From Phycisphaerales bacterium (GTDB taxonomy: Bacteria; Planctomycetota; Phycisphaerae; SM23-33): 36,006 nucleotides of DNA. Position 1 is the stretch's first letter, and every line of letters starts with the position of its first letter. A program made the position numbers and the translations under genes. Shown one piece after another: positions 8,792 through 26,100 of the stretch. The DNA lies in the NCBI GenBank assembly GCA_018645065.1, contig JABGPF010000002.1, positions 20,208 to 56,213 of the forward strand, given 5' to 3'. The notes beneath the pieces are model-generated. The model was not told the origin of the DNA and did not search any database. It worked only from the letters and a program-made list of their open reading frames with translations.

Positions 8792-10048
8792 ATGACTAGG
8801 CCCATACAAGAAAAATCTCAGAAACAGCCCGATGCTCTGTTTGGACGGATTGTTTCGATTCTTGAGCAGGCGCGGGGCAATGTGGTCCGGGCGGTTAATT
8901 CCAACATGGTGCTGGCTTATTGGATGATCGGGCGGGAAATTGTAGAGGGGCTACAGGGCGGCGCGGAGCGGGCGAAATATGGCCGAACGGTGCTTGAGGA
9001 TTTGTCACGGCGGCTTACAGAACAATACGGAAAAGGGTTTTCTGTTCCGAATCTCCAGAATTTCAGGAAATTCTATCAGGCCTATTCCGGGCGAATTTCA
9101 ATTTCCTACCCGCTGGGTACTAAATTCGAAAACCCTTCAATTTCCTACTCGGCGGGTACTAAATTGGAGGGTAAAAAACTCGACCCATCTGATGGAGAAT
9201 TAGAAAGCGGGGAGAACTATCACCCAGAGGGTGATGAATCTACATCTCTTCAAAAAAGGTCCTCGGCGGGGGGCGAGTCTGTGCAAGGCTTTTCGCCACA
9301 GCTTTCGTGGTCGCATTACCGCGTATTAATGAGGGTGGAAAACACGAACGCTCGCGATTTCTATGAGCGCCAGGCCGTTGAGGGCGCTTGGAGCAAGCGC
9401 ACGCTGGAGAGACAGGTTCATACCCAATATTACGAACGTTCCCTGCACGCCCAGCAGCCTGAAAAAATGATCACCGAAGGACGGCAGTTGCAGAAAACGC
9501 CTCAGGCCACCGGTGATATGCTCAAAAACCCATATGTGCTGGAGTTTCTCGGGTATCCTAACGTTGCCGAGCTGCATGAATCCGATGTGGAGCAGGCGAT
9601 TATCACCCACTTGCAGCGTTTTCTGCTGGAACTGGGCAATGGATTTGCTTTCGTCGCCCGCCAAAAACATATCCGCATTGACGAAGAGGATCGATTCATC
9701 GATCTGGTTTTTTACCACTGTAGGCTGAAGTTCTATCTGCTTATCGATCTGAAAATAGGGAAAACCACCCATGGAGACGTGGGGCAGATGGACGGTTATG
9801 TTCGTATGTTCGATGGGCTGTTCACCGCGCCCGACGACAGTCCCACCATCGGTCTGATCCTTTGCACCGAAAAATGTGAAACCGTCGCCAGCTACTCCGT
9901 GCTCAACGACCGCAAACAGATTTTTGCCTCAAAATACATGCTTTACCTGCCGACCGAAGAGCAGCTCCGCCTGGAGATCGAGAAAGAGCGGCGGTTGATC
10001 GAGTCCGCTGGGGAGGCGCGGGATACTGACGCGAGCGGTTCGATTTAA
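8792..10048 (+). CDS. Cassette 3: YhcG-family PDDEXK nuclease (DUF1016)
   Basis: This 418-aa protein has the two-part YhcG layout. The N-terminal DUF1016_N helical domain (about 10-110) holds NVVRAVNSNMVLAYWMIGREIVE and YGKGFSVPNLQNFRKFYQAY. The C-terminal PD-(D/E)xK nuclease domain (about 230-400) shows the catalytic Asp in FIDLVFYH (about 303) and the DLK of LLIDLKIGK (about 316). The family includes presumed DNA nucleases often found near mobile and defence genes. The linker (about 105-180) contains an imperfect duplication (ISISYPLGTKFE / SISYSAGTKLE). A GGGAG ribosome site precedes the ATG. A 214-nt leader separates it from attC2, unusually long for a cassette, so it may carry its own promoter. 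A broken paralogue lies at 14431-14660. Confidence 0.88.
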   Translation: MTRPIQEKSQKQPDALFGRIVSILEQARGNVVRAVNSNMVLAYWMIGREIVEGLQGGAERAKYGRTVLEDLSRRLTEQYGKGFSVPNLQNFRKFYQAYSGRISISYPLGTKFENPSISYSAGTKLEGKKLDPSDGELESGENYHPEGDESTSLQKRSSAGGESVQGFSPQLSWSHYRVLMRVENTNARDFYERQAVEGAWSKRTLERQVHTQYYERSLHAQQPEKMITEGRQLQKTPQATGDMLKNPYVLEFLGYPNVAELHESDVEQAIITHLQRFLLELGNGFAFVARQKHIRIDEEDRFIDLVFYHCRLKFYLLIDLKIGKTTHGDVGQMDGYVRMFDGLFTAPDDSPTIGLILCTEKCETVASYSVLNDRKQIFASKYMLYLPTEEQLRLEIEKERRLIESAGEARDTDASGSI

Positions 10049-11249: not shown

Positions 11250-11528
11250 ATGAAATTGAGCGAATCAATTAAGCCAATAAGCTATCTCAAAGCGCACGCA
11301 TCTGAACTTGTGCGTAATATCTCAGATGAGCACGGAACGCTCATTATCACGCAAAACGGGGAGGCCAAAGTCGTAGTGCAGGATATTGAATCTTACGAAA
11401 ACATGAAAGAGAGCCTGGCTTTGCTTAAGATGCTGGCCCAGAGTTCAAAAAGCAAAACCGAAGGCCGATTCAAACCTGCCAAGAAGGCCTTTAAGGAACT
11501 CAGGTCTCAGATTAAGGAATTGAAGTGA
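11250..11528 (+). CDS. Cassette 5a: Phd/YefM-family antitoxin
   Basis: This 92-aa protein has the Phd/YefM N-terminal DNA-binding fold: KPISYLKAHASELVRNI, then the strand-rich LIITQNGEAKVVVQDIESYE. The basic, helical C-terminal part (55-92) probably wraps and neutralises the toxin. It overlaps the toxin gene by 4 nt (GTGA), the normal antitoxin-first order of type II modules. A GGGAG ribosome site lies 7 nt before the ATG and a strong promoter lies upstream. It should bind its own promoter together with the toxin. Family identification is good, the subfamily less so. Confidence 0.88.
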   Translation: MKLSESIKPISYLKAHASELVRNISDEHGTLIITQNGEAKVVVQDIESYENMKESLALLKMLAQSSKSKTEGRFKPAKKAFKELRSQIKELK

Positions 11529-11848
11529 TCTACAGTGTGGCGATAATTGACGACGCCCAGGCCGATATACTTGCGATCTACAAGTACATCTTGGGAAATG
11601 ACTCGGTCGGCGCCGCCGATCATGTATTCGGAAAAATAGAAGAACTCTGCTACAGCTTAAATCAGCTACCTGAAAGAGGGCATGTTCCGCCCGAACTGGC
11701 GCGAATAAATGTGACCGCTTACCTGGAAGTTCATTTCAAGCCCTATCGCATAATATACGAAATTGAAGGCAAGAAGGTGTTCATTCATTGCATCCTGGAC
11801 GGACGCAGAGAACTTCAGGACCTTTTGGAAAGAAGACTGTTGCGATAA
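11525..11848 (+). CDS. Cassette 5b: RelE/ParE-superfamily toxin
   Basis: This 107-aa protein has the RelE/ParE alpha-beta layout: two N-terminal helices (DDAQADILAIYKYI, AADHVFGKIEELCYSLNQLPERGH), then beta strands (YLEVHFKPYRIIYEIEGKKVFIHCILDGRRELQDLLERRLL). The PYRIIYEIEGKKVFIHCILDGR block is the hallmark. Targets in this superfamily are ribosome-bound mRNA (RelE) or DNA gyrase (ParE), and the sequence alone does not decide between them. It starts with GTG overlapping the antitoxin stop, implying translational coupling. Its stop codon abuts attC5, so the pair travels as one cassette. Confidence 0.87.
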   Translation: MIYSVAIIDDAQADILAIYKYILGNDSVGAADHVFGKIEELCYSLNQLPERGHVPPELARINVTAYLEVHFKPYRIIYEIEGKKVFIHCILDGRRELQDLLERRLLR

Positions 11849-16398: not shown

Positions 16399-17316
16399 CT
16401 ACTTCTTCTTGCGTGTTGTTTTTTTCTTGGCTTCGTATTCTTTCCACGCTTTGATCACGCGTGGCGGCCAGGCGAAGCGGGGGGCTTTTGATCGGTCATA
16501 GCCCTTGAGGTGCCCGGGGGCTTTGCGGTCTGACGGGCGGACGTATTTCCACGGCTTGTCGCCGAACACTTCGGCTACGAGTTTGGCAAGGTCCGGGTCG
16601 TATTCCTTGAGTTCCTTGCGGGTGTCTACGTGGTTGTGATCGTGGTCCGGTTTGCGGTTGGTGTCGAACCACGATTGCACGGCTTCTGCCCAATATTCGG
16701 CGCGATTGTTCGATGCGTACTTATCTTTCCACAGGCCCTTTTTCATCGCCTTTTCGTAGGTTTTCTGGAGCCTGTCGTCAAAGGTTTTGTCGACGAAGAC
16801 CAAGCCCATATGGTGCATGGCGTGGGCGAATTCGTGTATCAGGATATTCTCGGTAATGTACGGGTCGCCCTTGTATCGCAGCAGATTTTCCTCACCGCAA
16901 CTGGTGGCTGGTCGGTGGGGTTGCCCGCCAAGACCTCTTGCCCGTTTGTCCCAGAAACCCTTGGGCTTCATTCTGCTGTGTTCGGGCATGTCGGTGGTGA
17001 ACTCGTTTACGCCCATGATAATCATGCGAGCCTTGCGGGCGGCCATTGCCTTGCTGATGTCGGGACGGCCTTCGAGCATCTTGTTGATAAGATACTCAGC
17101 CTCCAGCAACGCATAATCGGACACCTTCTCCGAACTGACCACCGCCACGCCGCTTGCGTTAATATACTTCTTGTAGAACGGGTCGAGTTTAAGCGATCGG
17201 ACCACATTTTTCGGCGGGGCGGTGACTTTGGACGCTGATGCATCGGACGGTTTCCCGACCGTCCAGCCGGTAAGCAATCCCACCGCTAGCAGGATGCACA
17301 GAACGCGTATTTTCAT
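16399..17316 (-). CDS. Exported zinc metalloprotease-like protein (gluzincin-type HEFAH)
   Basis: This 305-aa protein has a signal peptide (MKIRVLCILLAVGLLTGW) and a zinc-binding HEFAHAMHH motif (about 163-171). A downstream NRAEYWAEAVQSWF (about 206-219) can supply the third ligand Glu, as in gluzincins and anthrax-lethal-factor-like domains. An alpha-beta segment (45-110) precedes the catalytic part and a Lys-rich tail ends the protein. Similar proteins are common beside sulfatases in planctomycetes, where they may be inactive binders or peptidases. It lies 19 nt downstream of the oxidoreductase gene and is probably co-transcribed. Catalysis is inferred from motifs only. Confidence 0.78.
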   Translation of the reverse strand: MKIRVLCILLAVGLLTGWTVGKPSDASASKVTAPPKNVVRSLKLDPFYKKYINASGVAVVSSEKVSDYALLEAEYLINKMLEGRPDISKAMAARKARMIIMGVNEFTTDMPEHSRMKPKGFWDKRARGLGGQPHRPATSCGEENLLRYKGDPYITENILIHEFAHAMHHMGLVFVDKTFDDRLQKTYEKAMKKGLWKDKYASNNRAEYWAEAVQSWFDTNRKPDHDHNHVDTRKELKEYDPDLAKLVAEVFGDKPWKYVRPSDRKAPGHLKGYDRSKAPRFAWPPRVIKAWKEYEAKKKTTRKKK

Positions 17317-17335
17317 GTTTTTTGTTTCCGAGTCT

Positions 17336-18631
17336 TTACAGGCTCCACGATCCTCGCATGGGTCTTGCGATCATGCGGTTGGCTTCTTCGCTGTTGGTGA
17401 AGCGTTCTGTTGCGGGGTCCCATTTCAGCTTTTGCCCGGTTCGCATCGCGATATCGCCCAGCAGGCATGCGGTGCAGGAGCGGTGTCCGTTTTCGATCGG
17501 AGCGACGGTGGGCTTGCGGGTTCTTATCCCGTCGATCCAGTTTTGTTTGTGGTTCGAGTTGCGGTAAAGCTGAATCTCGTCCGGCCCGATTACTTCCTTC
17601 AGCAGCGACTTCGGATACGCGTCGCTGAACCCGCGTCGCACGAAAATCCACCCCTTGTCGCCGATGAACTTAACGCCTTGCGGATGTATGCTCGTGTCGC
17701 CGCAGCTAAGCGGTATACCGCCCGGGTAGACGTAATTAATGTGGAATTTACCGTGAACGTCCCAGAGTCCGTCGGTGGGGAACACGCCTTTGCCTTCGAT
17801 CTGGATCGGTCCGGAGTCTTCCATACCCATGCCCCAGTGGGATATGTCCATGTGGTGGGCGCCCCAACCGGTGATCATCCCGGCGCCGTAATCGGATATC
17901 CGCAACCAACCGGGCCGTCCGGTATTGGCTTGGGGGTGTACGCGTTTTTCAGTGTAGGCTTTCCAGGGCGCCGGTCCGAGCCACATATCGTAGTTCAGGT
18001 TTTCCGGTACGGGCATTACCGGCTGGGTTGTCGTGCCGGGGTCTGTGCCCAGTCCGACTTCCACCTTGAGCAGCTTGCCCAGGCGTCCGTTGCGGACCAG
18101 TTCGCAGGCGTGGCGGAAGTTGCCTTCCGATCGCTGCTGGCTTCCGACGTGCCCGATGCGGCCGTAGCGTTTGACCGCGTCGGCCAGTACTCTGCCTTCT
18201 TCGATCGTAAGGCTTAGCGGCTTCTGTACGAATATGTCCTTACCGTTCCGCACCGCGTCGAGTGCAGGGATAATGTGCCAGTGATCCGGCGTGGCGACCT
18301 GCACCGCGTCGATATCGTCACGTAGGGAAACTTCCCTGAAATCACCGCACGGTTTGCAGCCTTTTGATTTCTGGTAGCGGTCAGCCATCGCCGCTGCGTT
18401 TTGGGCTCGCTTGGAGTCGACATCGCAAGTGGTGAGCACCTGCACGCCTTCGATGCGCATGATTCCGCCCAGATCGCCTCTGCCCATTCTGCCCACGCCA
18501 ACGCAACCTATCGTTACGCGGTTACTGGGCGCATTGGCTCCGAAAACCGACGAAGGGAGCACAGCAGGCAACGCAACTGCCGCCGCGGTGGTTTTAAGAA
18601 AATTACGTCGTGATGTATTGTTGGATATCAT
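17336..18631 (-). CDS. Gfo/Idh/MocA-family oxidoreductase, Tat-exported
   Basis: This 431-aa NAD(P)-dependent sugar oxidoreductase-like protein begins with a twin-arginine signal (SRRNFLK, 7-13) and an Ala-rich core ending about residue 32. The Rossmann motif GCVGVGRMG is at about 42-50. The family's EKP motif appears as VQKPLS, followed by the C-terminal alpha-beta domain (WLGPAPWKAYTEKRVHP, GWGAHHMDISHWGMG with likely catalytic His). The ATG at 18631 is chosen over the longer frame because AGGTGA precedes it and the Tat signal starts normally. It is the gene immediately downstream of the Septu island and was probably once adjacent to the creatininase gene. The substrate is unknown. Confidence 0.9.
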   Translation of the reverse strand: MISNNTSRRNFLKTTAAAVALPAVLPSSVFGANAPSNRVTIGCVGVGRMGRGDLGGIMRIEGVQVLTTCDVDSKRAQNAAAMADRYQKSKGCKPCGDFREVSLRDDIDAVQVATPDHWHIIPALDAVRNGKDIFVQKPLSLTIEEGRVLADAVKRYGRIGHVGSQQRSEGNFRHACELVRNGRLGKLLKVEVGLGTDPGTTTQPVMPVPENLNYDMWLGPAPWKAYTEKRVHPQANTGRPGWLRISDYGAGMITGWGAHHMDISHWGMGMEDSGPIQIEGKGVFPTDGLWDVHGKFHINYVYPGGIPLSCGDTSIHPQGVKFIGDKGWIFVRRGFSDAYPKSLLKEVIGPDEIQLYRNSNHKQNWIDGIRTRKPTVAPIENGHRSCTACLLGDIAMRTGQKLKWDPATERFTNSEEANRMIARPMRGSWSL

Positions 18632-18716
18632 GAATGTCACCTTTTCTCGTGTTCGATCCGAATCGGACGGATGTCCATGCAATAGGATACCCGCTCCGGG
18701 GGGGATGGTGCAATGG

Positions 18717-18772
18717 TTACTTGTGCGGGAAGGTGTCGTCGATTGGGGTTGTCGCCAGTTCGCTCAGGAACT
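18717..18772 (-). pseudogene. Creatininase-family 3'-end remnant (left flank of Septu island)
   Basis: Read on the minus strand this encodes FLSELATTPIDDTFPHK and a stop, matching 14 of 17 residues of the C-terminus of the intact gene at 21592 (FLAELADTPIDKTFPHK). Homology stops exactly at the ptuB stop codon. It marks the original 3' end of the creatininase gene, separated from its body by the island. Confidence 0.85.
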
Positions 18773-19390
18773 CTATATGGTGATTCCCATGTTCATGGCG
18801 ACGTATTGGCACACAGTGTAGAATCCGTGAGGCCACTCGCGGCAGTTTTTTAGCATTTTCTTGAGATAGGGTTTGGGGTTTGAGTCGTGCGCAAGCATTG
18901 CCTCCATGGCCTTAATCATCGATTTTCGACGATCTCGTAAGCGGGTGCAATTCAGACCGAGCTTATCAATTGTATTTTGTGCGTGGGAGTCCGATTCCTT
19001 GGCGGGAATGATCTGGCCGTTTTGAGTGTAAGTAAACCGTTTTTGGCAATTTGCCTGTAGAGGTGTTACCATTTTATCGGAATACCAGCCTTGTTTCTCC
19101 GCGTTGCAACTGTCTTGGTGGACGCAACTGGCCAGTAGGTTGGCGTACTTAAACTCTGATGTAGGGAATTGTGATCGAGGTTTCAGATGTTCTATATTGG
19201 ATGACTGGTCTGCTTCAATAGCCACTTCGCAATAACAACAGAGCCCTTCCTGTTCACTGAGGAGTTGTTCCTTAAGGTTGAGGTATTCGGCGTTGTCTTG
19301 AGCGAAGTCTCCCCAATTCTTACCGCGATTCTGCTTCTTCCAACTGGCAAACGATTCAGGCTCACGGTTCTGCTTTTGGATATGCTTCAC
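18773..19390 (-). CDS. ptuB: PtuB-like HNH endonuclease of a Septu antiphage system
   Basis: This 205-aa protein is the nuclease partner of Septu (TIGR02646-like HNH family). The HNH core is visible: CCYC (51-54), IEHLKPRS (67-74, His68), YANLLASC (82-89, Asn84) and a later CNAEK. The start is GTG 19390, 1 nt after the ptuA stop, with AAGGAG about 10 nt upstream inside ptuA, so translation is coupled. In known Septu systems PtuA and PtuB form a complex that degrades DNA when phage infection is sensed. No reverse transcriptase is present nearby, which argues against a retron context. The gene ends exactly at the island's left junction. Confidence 0.9.
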   Translation of the reverse strand: MKHIQKQNREPESFASWKKQNRGKNWGDFAQDNAEYLNLKEQLLSEQEGLCCYCEVAIEADQSSNIEHLKPRSQFPTSEFKYANLLASCVHQDSCNAEKQGWYSDKMVTPLQANCQKRFTYTQNGQIIPAKESDSHAQNTIDKLGLNCTRLRDRRKSMIKAMEAMLAHDSNPKPYLKKMLKNCREWPHGFYTVCQYVAMNMGITI

Positions 19391-19391
19391 T

Positions 19392-21230
19392 TCAGCTCAT
19401 CTCCTTGCGCTGAATAAGCATTTCCGCCTGAATTAGTTCCGGATCTGTGGGCATGTTCTTACGCAGGGAGGATACTATCTTCTTGGCCTTGGTGAGTTGT
19501 TTTCGTTCGATGTAGATGAAGAGTTTGTCCAACTCCGTTTGGACTTCCTCTGGTCTGGCTTTGTCATTCATGACCAGTTCAAGGACACGGTCCATAGTCA
19601 TGCCGTAGGTTTCGGTCGTTTTCTTACAGGTGATACCTTCGCGTGTTTGTTGGAGCAAAAACACCGATTCAGGCTTGACCTGACTGACAATCTGAGGCGA
19701 ATGAGTGGAGACGATGAACTGGCATTTTGGGAACACCTTCTGCAATCTGGGAATGACCAGACGCTGCCAGTTTGGGTGCAGATGCAAGTCGATCTCGTCA
19801 ATTAGAATGACGCCGGGACCGTGGAGTGGGTTGCGTCTTTTGGGATTAGCCATAGCCAGACGTCTCGCGATGTCTCCCACCAGAGCAATAAGATTCTGTT
19901 CTCCATCTGAGAGTTGATCGAGTTGGAGTATGTCGCCTTCCTTTTCAACCAGCAAGCGGGGCCTTGGCCTGCCCGCTACATGAAGATTTCTACAATTTGG
20001 CACGAAGGACTCAATGGCCTTGCGAACAAACTTGACTTCACGTTCAGGGCTGCCTGATGGTAGCTTTTGGCGTTTGGCCTCTTGCTTCACTATCGCTTGG
20101 AAGGATTCTGCGAAGTTCTCAAAACGGGCGCCCGTGCTCTTCACACGCGGGGATCGTAGTAAGCGAAATTCCTCCGTAAACAATTTTCGGATTGCTCCTT
20201 TTCCTGATTTAGTTAGCCACCACAAATTCCGCAGAGTCGAGAATACGAGCATTTCCGACAGAGTTGCCTCAAATATCCGGAACTTCTCTTGACAGGAAAC
20301 CTGTTTCAATACAGTGAAGGCCTTGTGAAGAATACCTACCGGAAAATCTTCTCTTACGACACCTCTGGGATACGAGTACACATCAGAAAATTTGAGTAAT
20401 AGAAATTCAAAGTCGTGATGAATCCGCCACCATTCCTCCTGGCTATCATCGTTCGTCCCGAAATCGTGAATCATCTTAATCAACTGGTGAAAGAAGAAAG
20501 ACGGTTCTTCCAAGATGGATATACTATCCAGCAAGTTATTGATTCTTGGCCTCTGGATATCCGCGATCTTTACGTCTACTCTGTCGAGAGCACGCTCAAG
20601 AGCATCGGTTACTCTTTTGGCTTGGGAACGAATCCATTTGTGATTTTGACTAGCCCATTGATCTTTGGAACCGCGGCGTTCGTTTGCTATGTCGTCTTGT
20701 TCAAGAAACCAGTTGAAAAGGGATTGATAGTTCTCCTTTTTATCCAAGGCGTCCTTGTAAACATCAAGCGTAAAAGTAGGTTCTCTTTTCGCGAACGAAC
20801 GACGAGAAGGCACTGCGCGGTCGATAGGGTAGTATGCAATTATGGGAAGCGAAGAGCCTTCTTCGTATTGCTCATGAATTCGCGAGGCCAGCATTCCGGC
20901 GTCGTCACAGTCGGATCTTCTATCGCCTGGTTCTCTCTCCAATGATCTCACGAGAGACCACTGGTAGGATCTGCGCGCGTGCTTGACCTGAATGTCGATA
21001 GCTCCATTCGGTTGGTCCAAACGGACATCTGTGTCTTTGACGGTTCGCCCTGAGGCTCCAGCCTTGGAAATGCGGTTGACCAGCCATGACAGATTAATCG
21101 CCAAGGCATCCAGAATGGAAGTCTTGCCCGCGCCGTTGACTCCGACGAGAACATTGATTTGATTGCAAAACTCAAGGTCCAGAGTTGCGATGCCGCGAAA
21201 GTTATGAAGTTGTAGGTTCTTGATTTTCAT
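19392..21230 (-). CDS. ptuA: PtuA-like ATPase of a Septu antiphage system
   Basis: This 612-aa protein is an OLD/RecF-like ABC ATPase. N-terminal MKIKNLQLHNFRG leads to Walker A GVNGAGKTS (30-38). An inserted helical region follows (about 90-420). Then come the signature LSDGEQN and the Walker B with HLHPNWQ (VILIDEIDLHLHPNWQ), and an STHSPQIV motif. This architecture with an adjacent HNH gene is the Septu arrangement. It drives phage sensing and nuclease regulation in characterised systems. No clear promoter is seen upstream. Base composition is somewhat richer in A+T than in the flanking operon genes, consistent with acquisition. The pairing with ptuB makes the call secure; the subtype is uncertain. 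Confidence 0.9.
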   Translation of the reverse strand: MKIKNLQLHNFRGIATLDLEFCNQINVLVGVNGAGKTSILDALAINLSWLVNRISKAGASGRTVKDTDVRLDQPNGAIDIQVKHARRSYQWSLVRSLEREPGDRRSDCDDAGMLASRIHEQYEEGSSLPIIAYYPIDRAVPSRRSFAKREPTFTLDVYKDALDKKENYQSLFNWFLEQDDIANERRGSKDQWASQNHKWIRSQAKRVTDALERALDRVDVKIADIQRPRINNLLDSISILEEPSFFFHQLIKMIHDFGTNDDSQEEWWRIHHDFEFLLLKFSDVYSYPRGVVREDFPVGILHKAFTVLKQVSCQEKFRIFEATLSEMLVFSTLRNLWWLTKSGKGAIRKLFTEEFRLLRSPRVKSTGARFENFAESFQAIVKQEAKRQKLPSGSPEREVKFVRKAIESFVPNCRNLHVAGRPRPRLLVEKEGDILQLDQLSDGEQNLIALVGDIARRLAMANPKRRNPLHGPGVILIDEIDLHLHPNWQRLVIPRLQKVFPKCQFIVSTHSPQIVSQVKPESVFLLQQTREGITCKKTTETYGMTMDRVLELVMNDKARPEEVQTELDKLFIYIERKQLTKAKKIVSSLRKNMPTDPELIQAEMLIQRKEMS

Positions 21231-21591
21231 AATAGTTCACTTCATCACAAATAGTATTCTAGCAGAATTTTTTGCCTCTTGGGAGGTCTTCCCGGCTTCG
21301 CTGGGGAATCATGGAGATTCACTGTCTCGTATATCGGTTGATAGAAGACATTTACCTTATCTTCTTCAGCCTATGTTGGGTAGATTACCATACTTTTTAC
21401 TGCCACGCCAGTTAAGGGATTCTGTTATGTGTTGCCGGAGGCAGAGGTGCATTGGCATGATGTCTGTGAGTATCTCTATGCAAACCCGCGTGGTGTTCAA
21501 TAACCGAGCATTTTGGTTTGGTAGTTTTTTTGTTCTGGAATAGGGCTCTCTCGCACAAGAAATTGTCTTGCGGGAAGTACGGATACAAGAG
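21231..21591. other. Non-coding interval inside the Septu island
   Basis: This 361-nt stretch upstream of ptuA contains no convincing gene, transposase or integrase. Its right end abuts the creatininase stop codon. It presumably holds the ptuA promoter, and perhaps the recombination site or a decayed fragment. A TAGAATACTAT stretch at about 21255 (minus strand) is a possible -10 region. Confidence 0.4.
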
Positions 21592-22362
21592 TTACTTATG
21601 CGGGAAAGTCTTGTCGATTGGCGTATCGGCCAGTTCGGCCAGGAATCTTGCGACCCGCCCGCAAACCAGTTGCAGATACGCCTGGCCCCGCTCGGCCGTT
21701 GCGCCGGTCGGGTCGCCGGAGGCGCAGTGGTCGTTCAGGCGATCGAAGCGGCGGGAGGTTTTTACCCATCCTTCATTTAGGGCTTCAAAGAGGAACTCGG
21801 GCGTCCTGCCGTCTCCGGCCTGGTCCGGTTCGACCAGTTCCAGATACAACGCCAGCGCCACCGATGTTTCCAACTGTCCGGCGTGATCGTCCGGGCGGTC
21901 GAAGATTTCATCGTATTTGTCCCGCCCGACGGTCCACCAGTCGCACTGGAACACGTGGACGTCCAGGTCGCATTGAATCTGGCGGATCAGCGGAGTGAAA
22001 TCATTACCGCCGTGCCCGTTGAGCAGCACGATCTTGCGGATTCCATGGGCCATCAGAGATACGATTATCTCTCGGACCATCGCGTCGAGCGTGGCTTGCG
22101 ACACGTGAATCGCCATGGGGAACGCCATCAGGTTGCAGTCAACCCCGTACGGAAGCGCGGGCAGGCATAGCACTGATTCGCACTGCTCGAACGCCATGCG
22201 GCAGGACTCGCGTGCTACGTGTGTTGCGTGGCGGAAGTCCTGGCCTTGGGGGAGGTGGCGGTTATGCGGTTCTATCGCCGCCACGGGCAGGACCGCGACT
22301 TCGTATTTGCGTTGCGAAATGCGATGCAGATTAGTGGCGGTCAAATCCCATTCATCGATCAT
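21592..22362 (-). CDS. Creatininase-family amidohydrolase
   Basis: This 256-aa protein belongs to the creatininase family of metal-dependent amidohydrolases. The metal-binding residues are visible: Glu31, His33 and His36 in AAIEPHNRHLP, Asp42, and the NGHGGN motif near 117-122, with Glu in the QLETS segment (about 168). A GGAGAAG ribosome site overlaps the end of the upstream gene. Substrates of the family range from creatinine to pyrimidine and formamide compounds, so the substrate here is unknown. Its last ~17 codons lie at the border of the Septu island and are duplicated in diverged form at 18717-18772. The frame is intact and normal in length. Confidence 0.9.
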   Translation of the reverse strand: MIDEWDLTATNLHRISQRKYEVAVLPVAAIEPHNRHLPQGQDFRHATHVARESCRMAFEQCESVLCLPALPYGVDCNLMAFPMAIHVSQATLDAMVREIIVSLMAHGIRKIVLLNGHGGNDFTPLIRQIQCDLDVHVFQCDWWTVGRDKYDEIFDRPDDHAGQLETSVALALYLELVEPDQAGDGRTPEFLFEALNEGWVKTSRRFDRLNDHCASGDPTGATAERGQAYLQLVCGRVARFLAELADTPIDKTFPHK

Positions 22363-22364
22363 GG

Positions 22365-23126
22365 TTACTTCTCCGGTGCGGCAGGGCGAGTGGTGATGTT
22401 TTTTGTGAACCAGTGCAGGAGGCTGCGTAGTTTGCGGGCTTCGGCGCGGGCGAAACTTTTAGCGACAGCTTTCAGGGTTGGGTCGTTTTTTTTTGTGTTT
22501 ATCAGTTTGCCCAGGCGTTTTAAGCCCGCACGCCATGGCCCTTTGTATGGGGCCATTATTACGCGCGGGGCGGTGATTGAGTCGCCGGGTGCGAGTTTGC
22601 GCCCGATGCCTTCCATCACGAGTGTTACGTCGAGGCGGCCGGACTTTGTGCGGGCGATGTCGAACTGCCAGAACGACTCCGGCGAGACTGCGAATATGAC
22701 GCCGCTTTGGTTCGCGGCGTCTGCGATGACGAATGCGGGCAGATGCTTTCGTTGGCCAGACAGCGTTACCGGCTTGCCTGGTGTCGGGGCGGTGTCCAGT
22801 ATTTTCGGTTGCTCGTCGAACGCATGTACGCGCGGGAGTTTTTTGGTTTTCTTGGGGATTTTTTGAATGTCGAACACCCATCTGCCCAGGACCGCTCCGT
22901 CCATGCCCACCGCAGTTTGCCCGGTGTTGCTCAGTGTGATATCGGTTGTGTGCACGCCGGATTTGTCGACCGTGGTGCGGTGCACTACTTTCTGCGATTC
23001 GTCGGGCAGGGGGGCGGTGTCGTCTTCGCTCAGATGGTCGATCAGCCCCGCCCCTGAGGCCAGGGGTGCTGTAAATACAAATGCGAAAAATACGAAAATC
23101 GCCAGGATTATTGGTCGTATGGTTAT
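22365..23126 (-). CDS. Secreted hypothetical protein with no canonical start codon
   Basis: This ~253-aa protein lies between the PQQ gene and the creatininase gene, 4 nt and 2 nt away respectively. The frame encodes a clear signal peptide (TIRPIILAIFVFFAFVFTAPLASGA) but contains no ATG, GTG or TTG before it. The in-frame stop is a few codons upstream and only ATC (23129) or ATA (23126) lie at a usable distance from GGAG (23137-23134). The GTG at 22985 would omit the signal peptide. The mature part is beta-rich (TTDITLSNTGQTAVGMDGAVLGRW) and no family is recognised. An ATA/ATC start, or an assembly error, is possible. Tight spacing on both sides implies co-translation. Confidence 0.7.
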   Translation of the reverse strand: MTIRPIILAIFVFFAFVFTAPLASGAGLIDHLSEDDTAPLPDESQKVVHRTTVDKSGVHTTDITLSNTGQTAVGMDGAVLGRWVFDIQKIPKKTKKLPRVHAFDEQPKILDTAPTPGKPVTLSGQRKHLPAFVIADAANQSGVIFAVSPESFWQFDIARTKSGRLDVTLVMEGIGRKLAPGDSITAPRVIMAPYKGPWRAGLKRLGKLINTKKNDPTLKAVAKSFARAEARKLRSLLHWFTKNITTRPAAPEK

Positions 23127-23130
23127 GATA

Positions 23131-26100
23131 CTACTCCGCGATCATTTCAATACCGGAGATTACCGGCGGGTATTTACTCGTATTATCCTTGGTCAGGTCA
23201 GCCGGTTTGAACTCCAGCGTCAGCGATTTCTCGACGCTTATTCCGCGGAATTCTTTGACGACCACCCGATTCTTACCGCCAGCCTGAGATGCGATGTCGA
23301 ATTTCTCCAAACACTTTTTGCCCTGTAGCGACACATCGAAAATTCGCTTGCCCGCTTTGGCGTTATCGGGTTCTGCAAAGTGCAGCCGCACTGTGTATCG
23401 CTGCGGGGGAGACCCTTTGGACAGCAGGGGGATCGAGAGCTTCGTCACGCCTTTTGCGCCCGAGGCGTAGACCCAGGGCGTTTTGGCGTTGTTGATTTTC
23501 AGGAAGTCGGAGTTGCGGGCGAAATATTTGCCCGCCTTGAGCAACTTTGCGTCGATCTTCAGGTCCATCACCAGGCGTCCCCTGTACGGACGCGGGTAGG
23601 CCAGCCATATCGTCCCGTCGGCGTCTTTACGATCGCCCGGGGCGCCGAAGTTAACCGCCAGACGCTTTACCGGAGTCATACCGCCCGGTGCGCTGAACAT
23701 TCCCCACTTTGAACCGGCAGGTCGCGGGGCGAACACCGTTGTGCACTGGATCGGGTTGGGGCAAACGCATCCGGAACTGGCTTCGGGCATCAACACCAGC
23801 CCGTTGGCCGGGATGGTGTTAATCCAGCATCCAGGCCGCTGACCGCCGAAATGGACCGTGCCCGAATCGCTCTGCAAATCGTAGTAACTCGCGTCGCCCG
23901 ATCGGAAGAACAGCATGTTGGGCGAGGCTGCGATATTTCCGCAATGATGCCCCGGGCGAGCGAACTGCCATCGTTCAGTCGCTTCGGTTATCGGGTGATT
24001 TCGTGTTTTGACCTCGCCGGTTCGCAGGTCGTGCGACCAGGGTTCGGCGATAATCTGATCACCGACTATTATCGGACGGCTTCGATAACCCTTGTTGCCC
24101 GACCAGAGCGTTTTTCCGCTGTCGCCTTCTATCGCGACCAGGCTTCGTCTTGAAAATTTGCCCGCAAAGAATTCCCGCCAGAAGTGCCCGTTCCAGGGCT
24201 GGACGGTCATCAGGAGCACGTTCTTTGAGTACATTAGCGTTAAATCACCGTGTCCGTAGGTTATTTGCGGGATGCAGTCTGAGACGTAGAGGGGCTTGGA
24301 CCACTCGACTTTTCCAGTCTCGGCGTTCAGGCAGACCACCAGGCGCACGTCGGGCGGGATCGGTTTGCCGCGTGAGTCGCGACGTGCTTTTTCCGTGACG
24401 CCTTTGAGGCCTTCCTGCTTTTGGGCTTCGGTTACTGTTCGATCGATATAGTAGACCCGACCGTCGCCGATGGTGATTGTGACGGGCATCATTTTCGATG
24501 TGTTGTGCGTCCATTTGTACTTTCCGGTCTCGGCGTCGATCGCGAATATTCGCTTGTCGCCTCCGCTGCCGTAAAGCGTTTTACCTACGCACGCTATATA
24601 TCGCCATTGCGCCGATGGGGCGGTCTTGTACGTGCGTAATGTTCGACCGGTGGCTGCGTCGAGGCGGAGGCATCTGTCTTCAATCGCCACAAACAAACTG
24701 CCCATCCCGCCAGCTAGGTTCGATGTCTTGGTCTTCAGGCCTAACCGCAACGCGCCGGGAATCTCGCGTTTCCACAGCTCCACGCCGTTGTACGAATCGT
24801 AGGCCATTATCACGTTCTCGCCCTGGACGAACATTCGCCCATCAAACGCCAACGGCGCCGCAGCCGATGCGTGGCGGCTTGGCATGCGTCCCGGTCCGGG
24901 CTCGCCATACCAGAGCAGGTCGAGCTGCCCTTTGACGAGTTGGTCGTCACCGCATCCGCTGTTGCCCGCCTCACCGTATTCGTGCGTCCAGCCGCCCGCG
25001 CCGTTCAGGGCACCTCGCGCTACTGTTACGCCCGAATCGGTTGGCGCTGTTTTGGTGGCTTTCTCGCCAAGCTCCGCCAGTTCCTTTCGGATGGCGCTGA
25101 GCCAGGCGGCGCGTTTGGCCTTATCTTTTATCGCTATATCCGCCAACCCGCCGCACGGTTTCAGCATTCGCAGAACTTCGCTGGCGGGGGTCGATCCGTC
25201 GACTGAGACGATAATATTCGCGAAATAGTCACTGAAGCCCAGTGCGTCCAGTCGCGAGGTTATTACCGTTACGCGGGCGCCGTAAAGACCGGCCGCTGAG
25301 AGCTTTTTGCGAGCTTGGTCCGCCGCCTTCGCGTCGGGATTCACCACGTAGATCATCATCTCGCTGCGTTTTGCCAGTTCCTTGGCTATTCGCCCGTCTC
25401 CGCCCAGGACAAGCGCGTAACCCTTCGTCGCGCCGGATGATTTTATGATCGTCGCAGTTCGAGTTTCGCTCGGCGCAAAAGCGTTCGGGTCGGCGGCTTG
25501 GATGACCTTCAGACCCTTGCCCGCCTTCTTTGTAACGTAGCAGTATATTTTTCCCGTGTCGGTGCTCACCAGCACACGCCCGTTTGCCGCAGCCAAGCCT
25601 TTTGCCTCACCATCGACCTTGGCTGACCAGACGGTTTTGCCCGAGTTGATATCGAACGCGGAGACCGAATCCTGCCCGCCTGTGAACAGCAAAGTTTTCG
25701 TCAGCGCCATTGCTCCCGAGTGCGGGCACTTGGCTCGCCATTTGACTGACTGGTCCCAAACCTTCTGCTCCTTATCTCGCAGCGTGATATACTTTTTCAT
25801 CTGGGCCTGCTGGGCCTTGGTCGGCACGCCCGGTTTTTTGATCCATTTTTCGTAGGCGATGCGACTTTTGAGGCCCTTGATCTTCTGTAGTACGGATGCG
25901 AGCTTCTGCGAGCCGCGTCTCTTTGTCCAGCCATCGCGGTCCAACGCTATCACCTCGCTGCCGTTGAGCATGTAGGCTACGTCCTTGTCGACCACCAGGC
26001 GCAACGCCTCCTCGGACATTTCCAATTTGCCCGAATCCTCCTTGATCCCGAGCATGCGTTCGGTCCCGTTGAACAGCATATCGCCAGCCAGCATGCTGTA

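Follow-up and report, generated by a model that had tools for sequence, protein, structure and literature searches.

In Rhs and type VI effector genes, homology-anchored DNA replaces the 3′ part of a gene and leaves the old end behind the cargo, without any integrase; homology-facilitated illegitimate recombination has been proposed for this C-terminal displacement (Kirchberger 2017, PMC5361080). Streptococcal integrative and conjugative elements at rpsI, guaA, rplL, and other genes also have the gene end duplicated at both borders and the target gene intact (PMC4701971). In the E. coli pan-genome, defense genes occupy hotspots at fixed positions flanked by conserved genes, and in some of these no mobilization route is known (PMC10121019). 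The locus described here resembles each of these. It lies in the window, i.e., the whole stretch of 36,006 nucleotides analyzed, taken from contig C32 (JABGPF010000002.1) of an incomplete metagenome genome of a marine planctomycete (Phycisphaerae; G000, 92% complete), and consists of a 2.8-kb insert with the two genes of a Septu defense system, ptuA and ptuB, placed at the 3′ end of a creatininase gene and flanked by two copies of that gene's end. In the Rhs and type VI systems, however, it is a toxin under selection that is displaced, with its immunity gene as cargo, whereas here a metabolic enzyme is joined to an unrelated defense system. The streptococcal elements carry an integrase and have repeats of 12–54 bp, whereas here there is no recombinase and the repeats span ~54–70 nt at 78–80% identity. 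An integrase or recombinase gene is likewise typical of the E. coli islands; the present insert has none and is only 2.8 kb long. The event is a clear, well-bounded gain of a defense system without a recombinase at the 3′ end of a protein gene: a known kind in a new setting, not a new system. To our knowledge, the route by which small recombinase-free defense systems enter chromosomes is mostly unknown. An earlier note on this DNA had presented protein-gene 3′ ends as sites rarely described for Septu; for mobile elements at large, insertion at such ends is well documented (PMC4701971).

The creatininase-family amidohydrolase (21592–22362; like all features of the locus, on the minus strand) is intact, with a Pfam PF02633 match at 3.1e-52 and an unbroken frame of 256 amino acids, the same length as its orthologue in the congeneric genome G002 (87% amino acid identity). 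Its last 17 codons and stop, hereafter the attached end (R copy, 21592–21645), read FLAELADTPIDKTFPHK and stop in the minus-strand frame 21645–21592 and match G002 at 47/54 nt. The orphan end (L copy, 18717–18770), identified by the repeat and by comparison with G002, starts at the position of creatininase codon 240 and reads FLSELATTPIDDTFPHK and stop in the frame 18770–18717. Nucleotides agree between the two ends at 43/54 positions and residues at 14/17. No unrelated 54-nt stretch of the window exceeds 29/54, so that the match between them is not due to chance. A repeat search gives a direct repeat of 60 nt (18711–18770 and 21586–21645), 78% identical, with copies 2875 nt apart, in which identical runs of 8–9 nt are retained. 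The duplication of the gene end in the window is confirmed, and with it the claim that the last ~17 creatininase codons flank the ptuA/ptuB insert on both sides; repeats at both borders around an intact target gene are also the arrangement of an island. The coordinates proposed earlier are good, except that the right border of the insert lies near 21572–21575, since homology runs 16–19 nt past the creatininase stop.

The insert (18771–21575) has 47.4% GC, against 56–58% in its flanks, and its genes have a third-position GC of 0.53–0.54, against 0.66–0.73 in the neighboring genes. It is missing from G002 (a match to JASLNT010000024.1, a marine metagenome-assembled genome from the Arabian Sea according to its isolate name), the sole empty-site genome among the two congeneric ones. 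In G002 the creatininase is followed by an 83-nt spacer, an oxidoreductase orthologue (82% amino acid identity), and the next gene (79%); the site has no second creatininase end, and no PtuB was found in the genome. Genes outside the insert are collinear between the window and G002, whose flanks match on both sides. The empty site that the earlier note had asked for in related genomes thus exists. A gain of ptuAB in the lineage of the window is simpler than a loss in G002, albeit with one empty site only, and also fits the foreign composition of the insert; a gain is therefore favored. The proposed separation of the oxidoreductase from an operon partner stands insofar as the two genes are adjacent in G002. 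It does not extend to the other congeneric genome, G001 (a match to JADHXQ010000118.1, a marine metagenome-assembled genome from the Black Sea, 750 m, according to its isolate name), which has a different gene after the creatininase and lacks a close oxidoreductase orthologue. Hence, the partnership of creatininase and oxidoreductase is not universal in the genus.

The two gene ends relate differently to the empty site. Homology of the attached copy continues for 16–19 nt past the stop (including 16 nt of 3′ untranslated sequence, 21576–21591, aligned to G002 at 15/16 positions) and then ends. Homology of the orphan copy runs through the spacer up to the oxidoreductase, at a spacing of 85 vs. 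83 nt. Over 70 nt, the attached end with its 16 untranslated nucleotides has 8 differences to G002 and the orphan 19, and the sites favoring closeness to G002 number 14 for the attached and 3 for the orphan copy (p = 0.013). The 157 nt just before the duplicated segment differ from G002 at 41/157 positions, against 8/70 for the attached end (p = 0.014), and synonymous divergence (dS) from G002, computed on few sites, is similar, and at the level of the species, in the gene body (0.87) and the orphan (0.78), and drops to 0.30 in the attached end. Because it is closer to G002 than either the orphan or the adjacent stretch of the gene, the attached end is probably the incoming one, and it likely arrived together with ptuAB, the donor being closer to G002. 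The orphan end, because it retains the ancestral spacing to the oxidoreductase, is likely the old resident end, now displaced. The idea that the incoming DNA brought its own gene end is therefore probably right.

The cargo itself has the genes, gene order, and families of Septu type I. Both genes are intact: ptuA (19392–21230, 612 amino acids; PADLOC PtuA 8.7e-139, PDB PtuA 8ee4 4.3e-35) codes for the Septu ATPase, and ptuB (18773–19390, 205 amino acids; PADLOC PtuB 2.2e-50, PDB PtuB 8ee7 1.8e-12), which starts 2 nt after ptuA and thus forms an adjacent pair with it, codes for an HNH nuclease. The ptuB stop and the orphan end are 2 nt apart, and an alignment with two other planctomycete PtuB proteins indicates that the C-terminus is close to native. 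To judge from their families, PtuA presumably restrains or aims the PtuB nuclease against phage, as in a normal Septu type I system. The PtuAB effectors of Retron I-A (Ec78/Ec83) are related ATPase and HNH proteins, but this assignment was rejected: the insert holds only ptuA and ptuB, with neither a reverse transcriptase reading frame nor a noncoding RNA match, and its proteins score below the NCBIfam cut-offs for the retron Ec78 PtuA and PtuB. The pair appears to be an ordinary, typical Septu type I, notable for its location alone. The ptuA leader (21231–21554) contains no RNA family (Rfam gave no match in 17000–23200) or recognizable gene remnant, and no further copy of it was found elsewhere in the genome; a pattern search found no close PtuA relatives in the genome or in viral contigs. 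Between the leader and the untranslated sequence, at the start of the insert, lies part of a third, imperfect copy of the gene-end and untranslated region (21555–21576), which matches 21585–21606 at 16/22 positions (P about 3e-4 for these 22 nt under Markov shuffles, post hoc).

With a profile of the C-terminus, creatininase ends were sought in 57 creatininase loci (flanks of up to 8 kb included) and in 35 further regions, some genomes being present under two names. In these ~90 loci there is only one further orphan end of this kind, at the locus L088 (JAJFUE010000123.1). There (8811–9250) the order is a complete creatininase, an insert of 330 nt (43.6% GC), and an orphan creatininase end of 47 codons (60.5% GC), so that other cargo does occur between the same two gene ends; here it is an open reading frame for a 95-amino acid zinc-ribbon membrane protein. 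The two L088 ends differ at 30/135 nt, 19 of these 30 at third codon positions (p = 0.0007), with a nonsynonymous divergence (dN) of 0.10 and a dS of 1.48, which indicates that, until recently, each served as a functional gene end and was not a freely drifting scar. An identical target-site duplication with later drift is rejected for L088 on the same figures; in the window, where 6 of 11 differences are at third positions, it could still apply. In both loci the cargo is co-directional with the creatininase and its stop lies 0–5 nt from the orphan end. Since the duplicated stretch spans 17 codons in the window and ~47 in L088, there is no fixed att core, and no shared insertion core was found in what are two cases only. 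The upstream border of L088 shows 20 identical nt. Directly after its orphan end there is a gene for a PIN-domain toxin (VapC-like; 9257–9682, minus strand). Seemingly truncated creatininase frames seen in G261 and G016 turned out to be contig-edge effects or real tandem genes.

A more general scan for orphan gene ends covered 2.08 Mb and ~1,550 called genes, including ~1 Mb of three congeneric genomes. It returned as intergenic ends the window and one weak candidate of 20 residues, and missed L088, which an earlier scan had caught, probably because of its filter on overlapping reading frames. The weak candidate (L130, 7600–7965; 20 amino acids, E = 0.001) is a Bacteroidota gene ending in FLRKIGYKL and a stop, whose end recurs after another 235 nt, immediately ahead of a creatininase gene. 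With L088 as 1 in ~90 creatininase loci against ~1 candidate in ~1,550 scanned genes, it is suggestive that creatininase may be favored as a site, the comparison consisting of one unascertained case, as the window was chosen for the feature. A much stronger proposition would make the creatininase 3′ end a recurrent docking site in Planctomycetota and their relatives for small recombinase-free cassettes (Septu in one case, the 95-amino acid zinc-ribbon protein in the other), each of them a gene or operon whose stop would directly abut a creatininase end that serves as its recombination tag, and which an enzyme acting in trans would move; we hold this to be very doubtful.

The reading that we prefer, with a probability of roughly one half, is displacement of the gene end by incoming DNA that was anchored by homology in the creatininase and joined illegitimately on its far side. 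The donor would be a related bacterium, and its fragment would have held the 3′ end of a creatininase, the first bases of the untranslated region, and then ptuAB. Crossover with the resident creatininase would have occurred within the last 17 codons or slightly upstream of them, where homology is present. The far end, which is joined 2 nt past the ptuB stop and 17 codons before the resident stop, would have been attached without extensive homology. In this way the creatininase would have been kept in frame with a new ending, its native ending would have become an untranslated scar in front of the oxidoreductase, and the element would not have required a recombinase of its own. The attached end and its untranslated region are homologous to G002, and the far junction has no extended homology. 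The insert contains no recombinase gene and no recognizable remnant of one, and a motif search, which distant families could escape, recognized none within 8 kb of the ~90 related creatininase ends. The one integrase-like match near related loci (L105) looks like XerD and is 3.3 kb away. No creatininase end was confirmed in the viral contigs of IMG/VR. It is the lack of recombinases in the insert and near related ends, together with the unequal lengths of the duplications, that leads us to prefer displacement. Homology-facilitated illegitimate recombination is experimentally documented in transformable bacteria (PMC3240628). For one and the same gene there are an empty site and two independently occupied ones, which makes a concrete and testable picture: a borrowed ending would keep the target enzyme functional, and the direction of the event could be read from the scar. 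Should this be general, orphan gene ends could reveal recombinase-free insertions even in fragmentary genomes.

Several points weigh against displacement. Documented cases usually delete resident DNA of similar length (PMC3240628), and no such deletion is visible on the side of the oxidoreductase. The crossover seems to coincide with a boundary of the duplication, a result that a site-specific recombinase would yield too, and the distance of 0–5 nt between junction and cargo stop in both cases is tighter than random joining predicts; these tight junctions and the third gene-end copy at the border of the insert are left unexplained. In addition, the divergence of the attached end from G002 (8/70) is not significantly lower than that of the whole gene body (128/717, p = 0.24), and the tests of polarity, which draw on 54–70 nt and one empty-site genome, lend modest support.

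The main rival, which would accommodate some of these points, is a site-specific integrative island, in which a tyrosine (or serine) recombinase targets the creatininase 3′ end and the element's own end restores the frame, the 2.8 kb being a decayed remnant or a passenger mobilized in trans. An island explains the geometry equally well, as the same is seen at the 3′ ends of rpsI, guaA, rplL, and other genes with direct repeats of 12–54 bp (PMC4701971). The identical runs of 8–9 nt in the repeat and the 20 identical nt at the L088 border are compatible with it, the third copy at the border of the insert may be a sign of repeated events, and G000 has six Phage_integrase matches, none of them on the contig of the window. 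Against an island stand the missing integrase gene or remnant, the failure to recognize recombinases around related creatininase ends or to find such an end in viral contigs, and the difference between 17 and 47 duplicated codons. This explanation is possible but rather unlikely. The analogy drawn by the earlier note with mobile islands at tRNA 3′ ends is, on the same evidence, not upheld; a tRNA insertion site was itself discarded, as the window contains no tRNA.

It is more doubtful still that the orphan end descends from a tandem second creatininase, most of which was replaced by Septu so that its last 17 codons remain. Tandem creatininases do exist, as in G016 (contigs C16 and C109, which overlap by 141 nt), and both window ends resemble creatininases of one lineage. 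The G016 pair is on a distant branch (about 55–58% amino acid identity), however, and G002 has a single copy with flanks that match both sides. The untranslated sequence after the attached copy also matches the creatininase–oxidoreductase spacer of G002 (15/16), and the scenario has to assume that the gene was duplicated, that G002 lost a copy, and that a deletion ended 2 nt past the ptuB stop; we hold it to be improbable. Least of all would we expect an assembly chimera of two strains, which the origin of the window in an incomplete metagenome-assembled genome might suggest, but which is very improbable given that any identity shared by the junctions is too short to confuse a k-mer assembler, the order of the neighboring genes around the insert agrees with G002, and the unrelated assembly of L088 shows the pattern again.

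Among the neighboring genes, the one behind the orphan end, 85 nt away, codes for a Gfo/Idh/MocA oxidoreductase with a Tat signal (17336–18631; Pfam). This family shows a striking expansion, with about 70 or more paralogues per genome in G000, G001, and G002. Upstream of the creatininase, the window has a remnant of 206 amino acids (22365–22985, minus strand) of a protein of ~1140 amino acids with a middle domain similar to hydrazine synthase alpha. G002 has this protein in full, and the G001 version also seems to be longer than the remnant. The window lacks two internal pieces, of about 0.5 and 2.3 kb, the second of which ends just before the creatininase start.

Two other Septu systems of Phycisphaerae occupy operon-like positions in different surroundings, the neighbors being named by reading their proteins. 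One (L151, 7504–9956, in G362) lies between clpX and aspS, and another (L152, 7308–9187, in G098) directly before cysN in a sulfate-assimilation operon. Neither locus has flanking repeats, and these were rejected as a general trait of planctomycete Septu. Elsewhere in the window, on the plus strand, there are a YhcG/DUF1016 PDDEXK nuclease gene (8792–10048) and a Phd/YefM antitoxin followed by an open reading frame for a probable ParE/RelE-like toxin (11250–11848).

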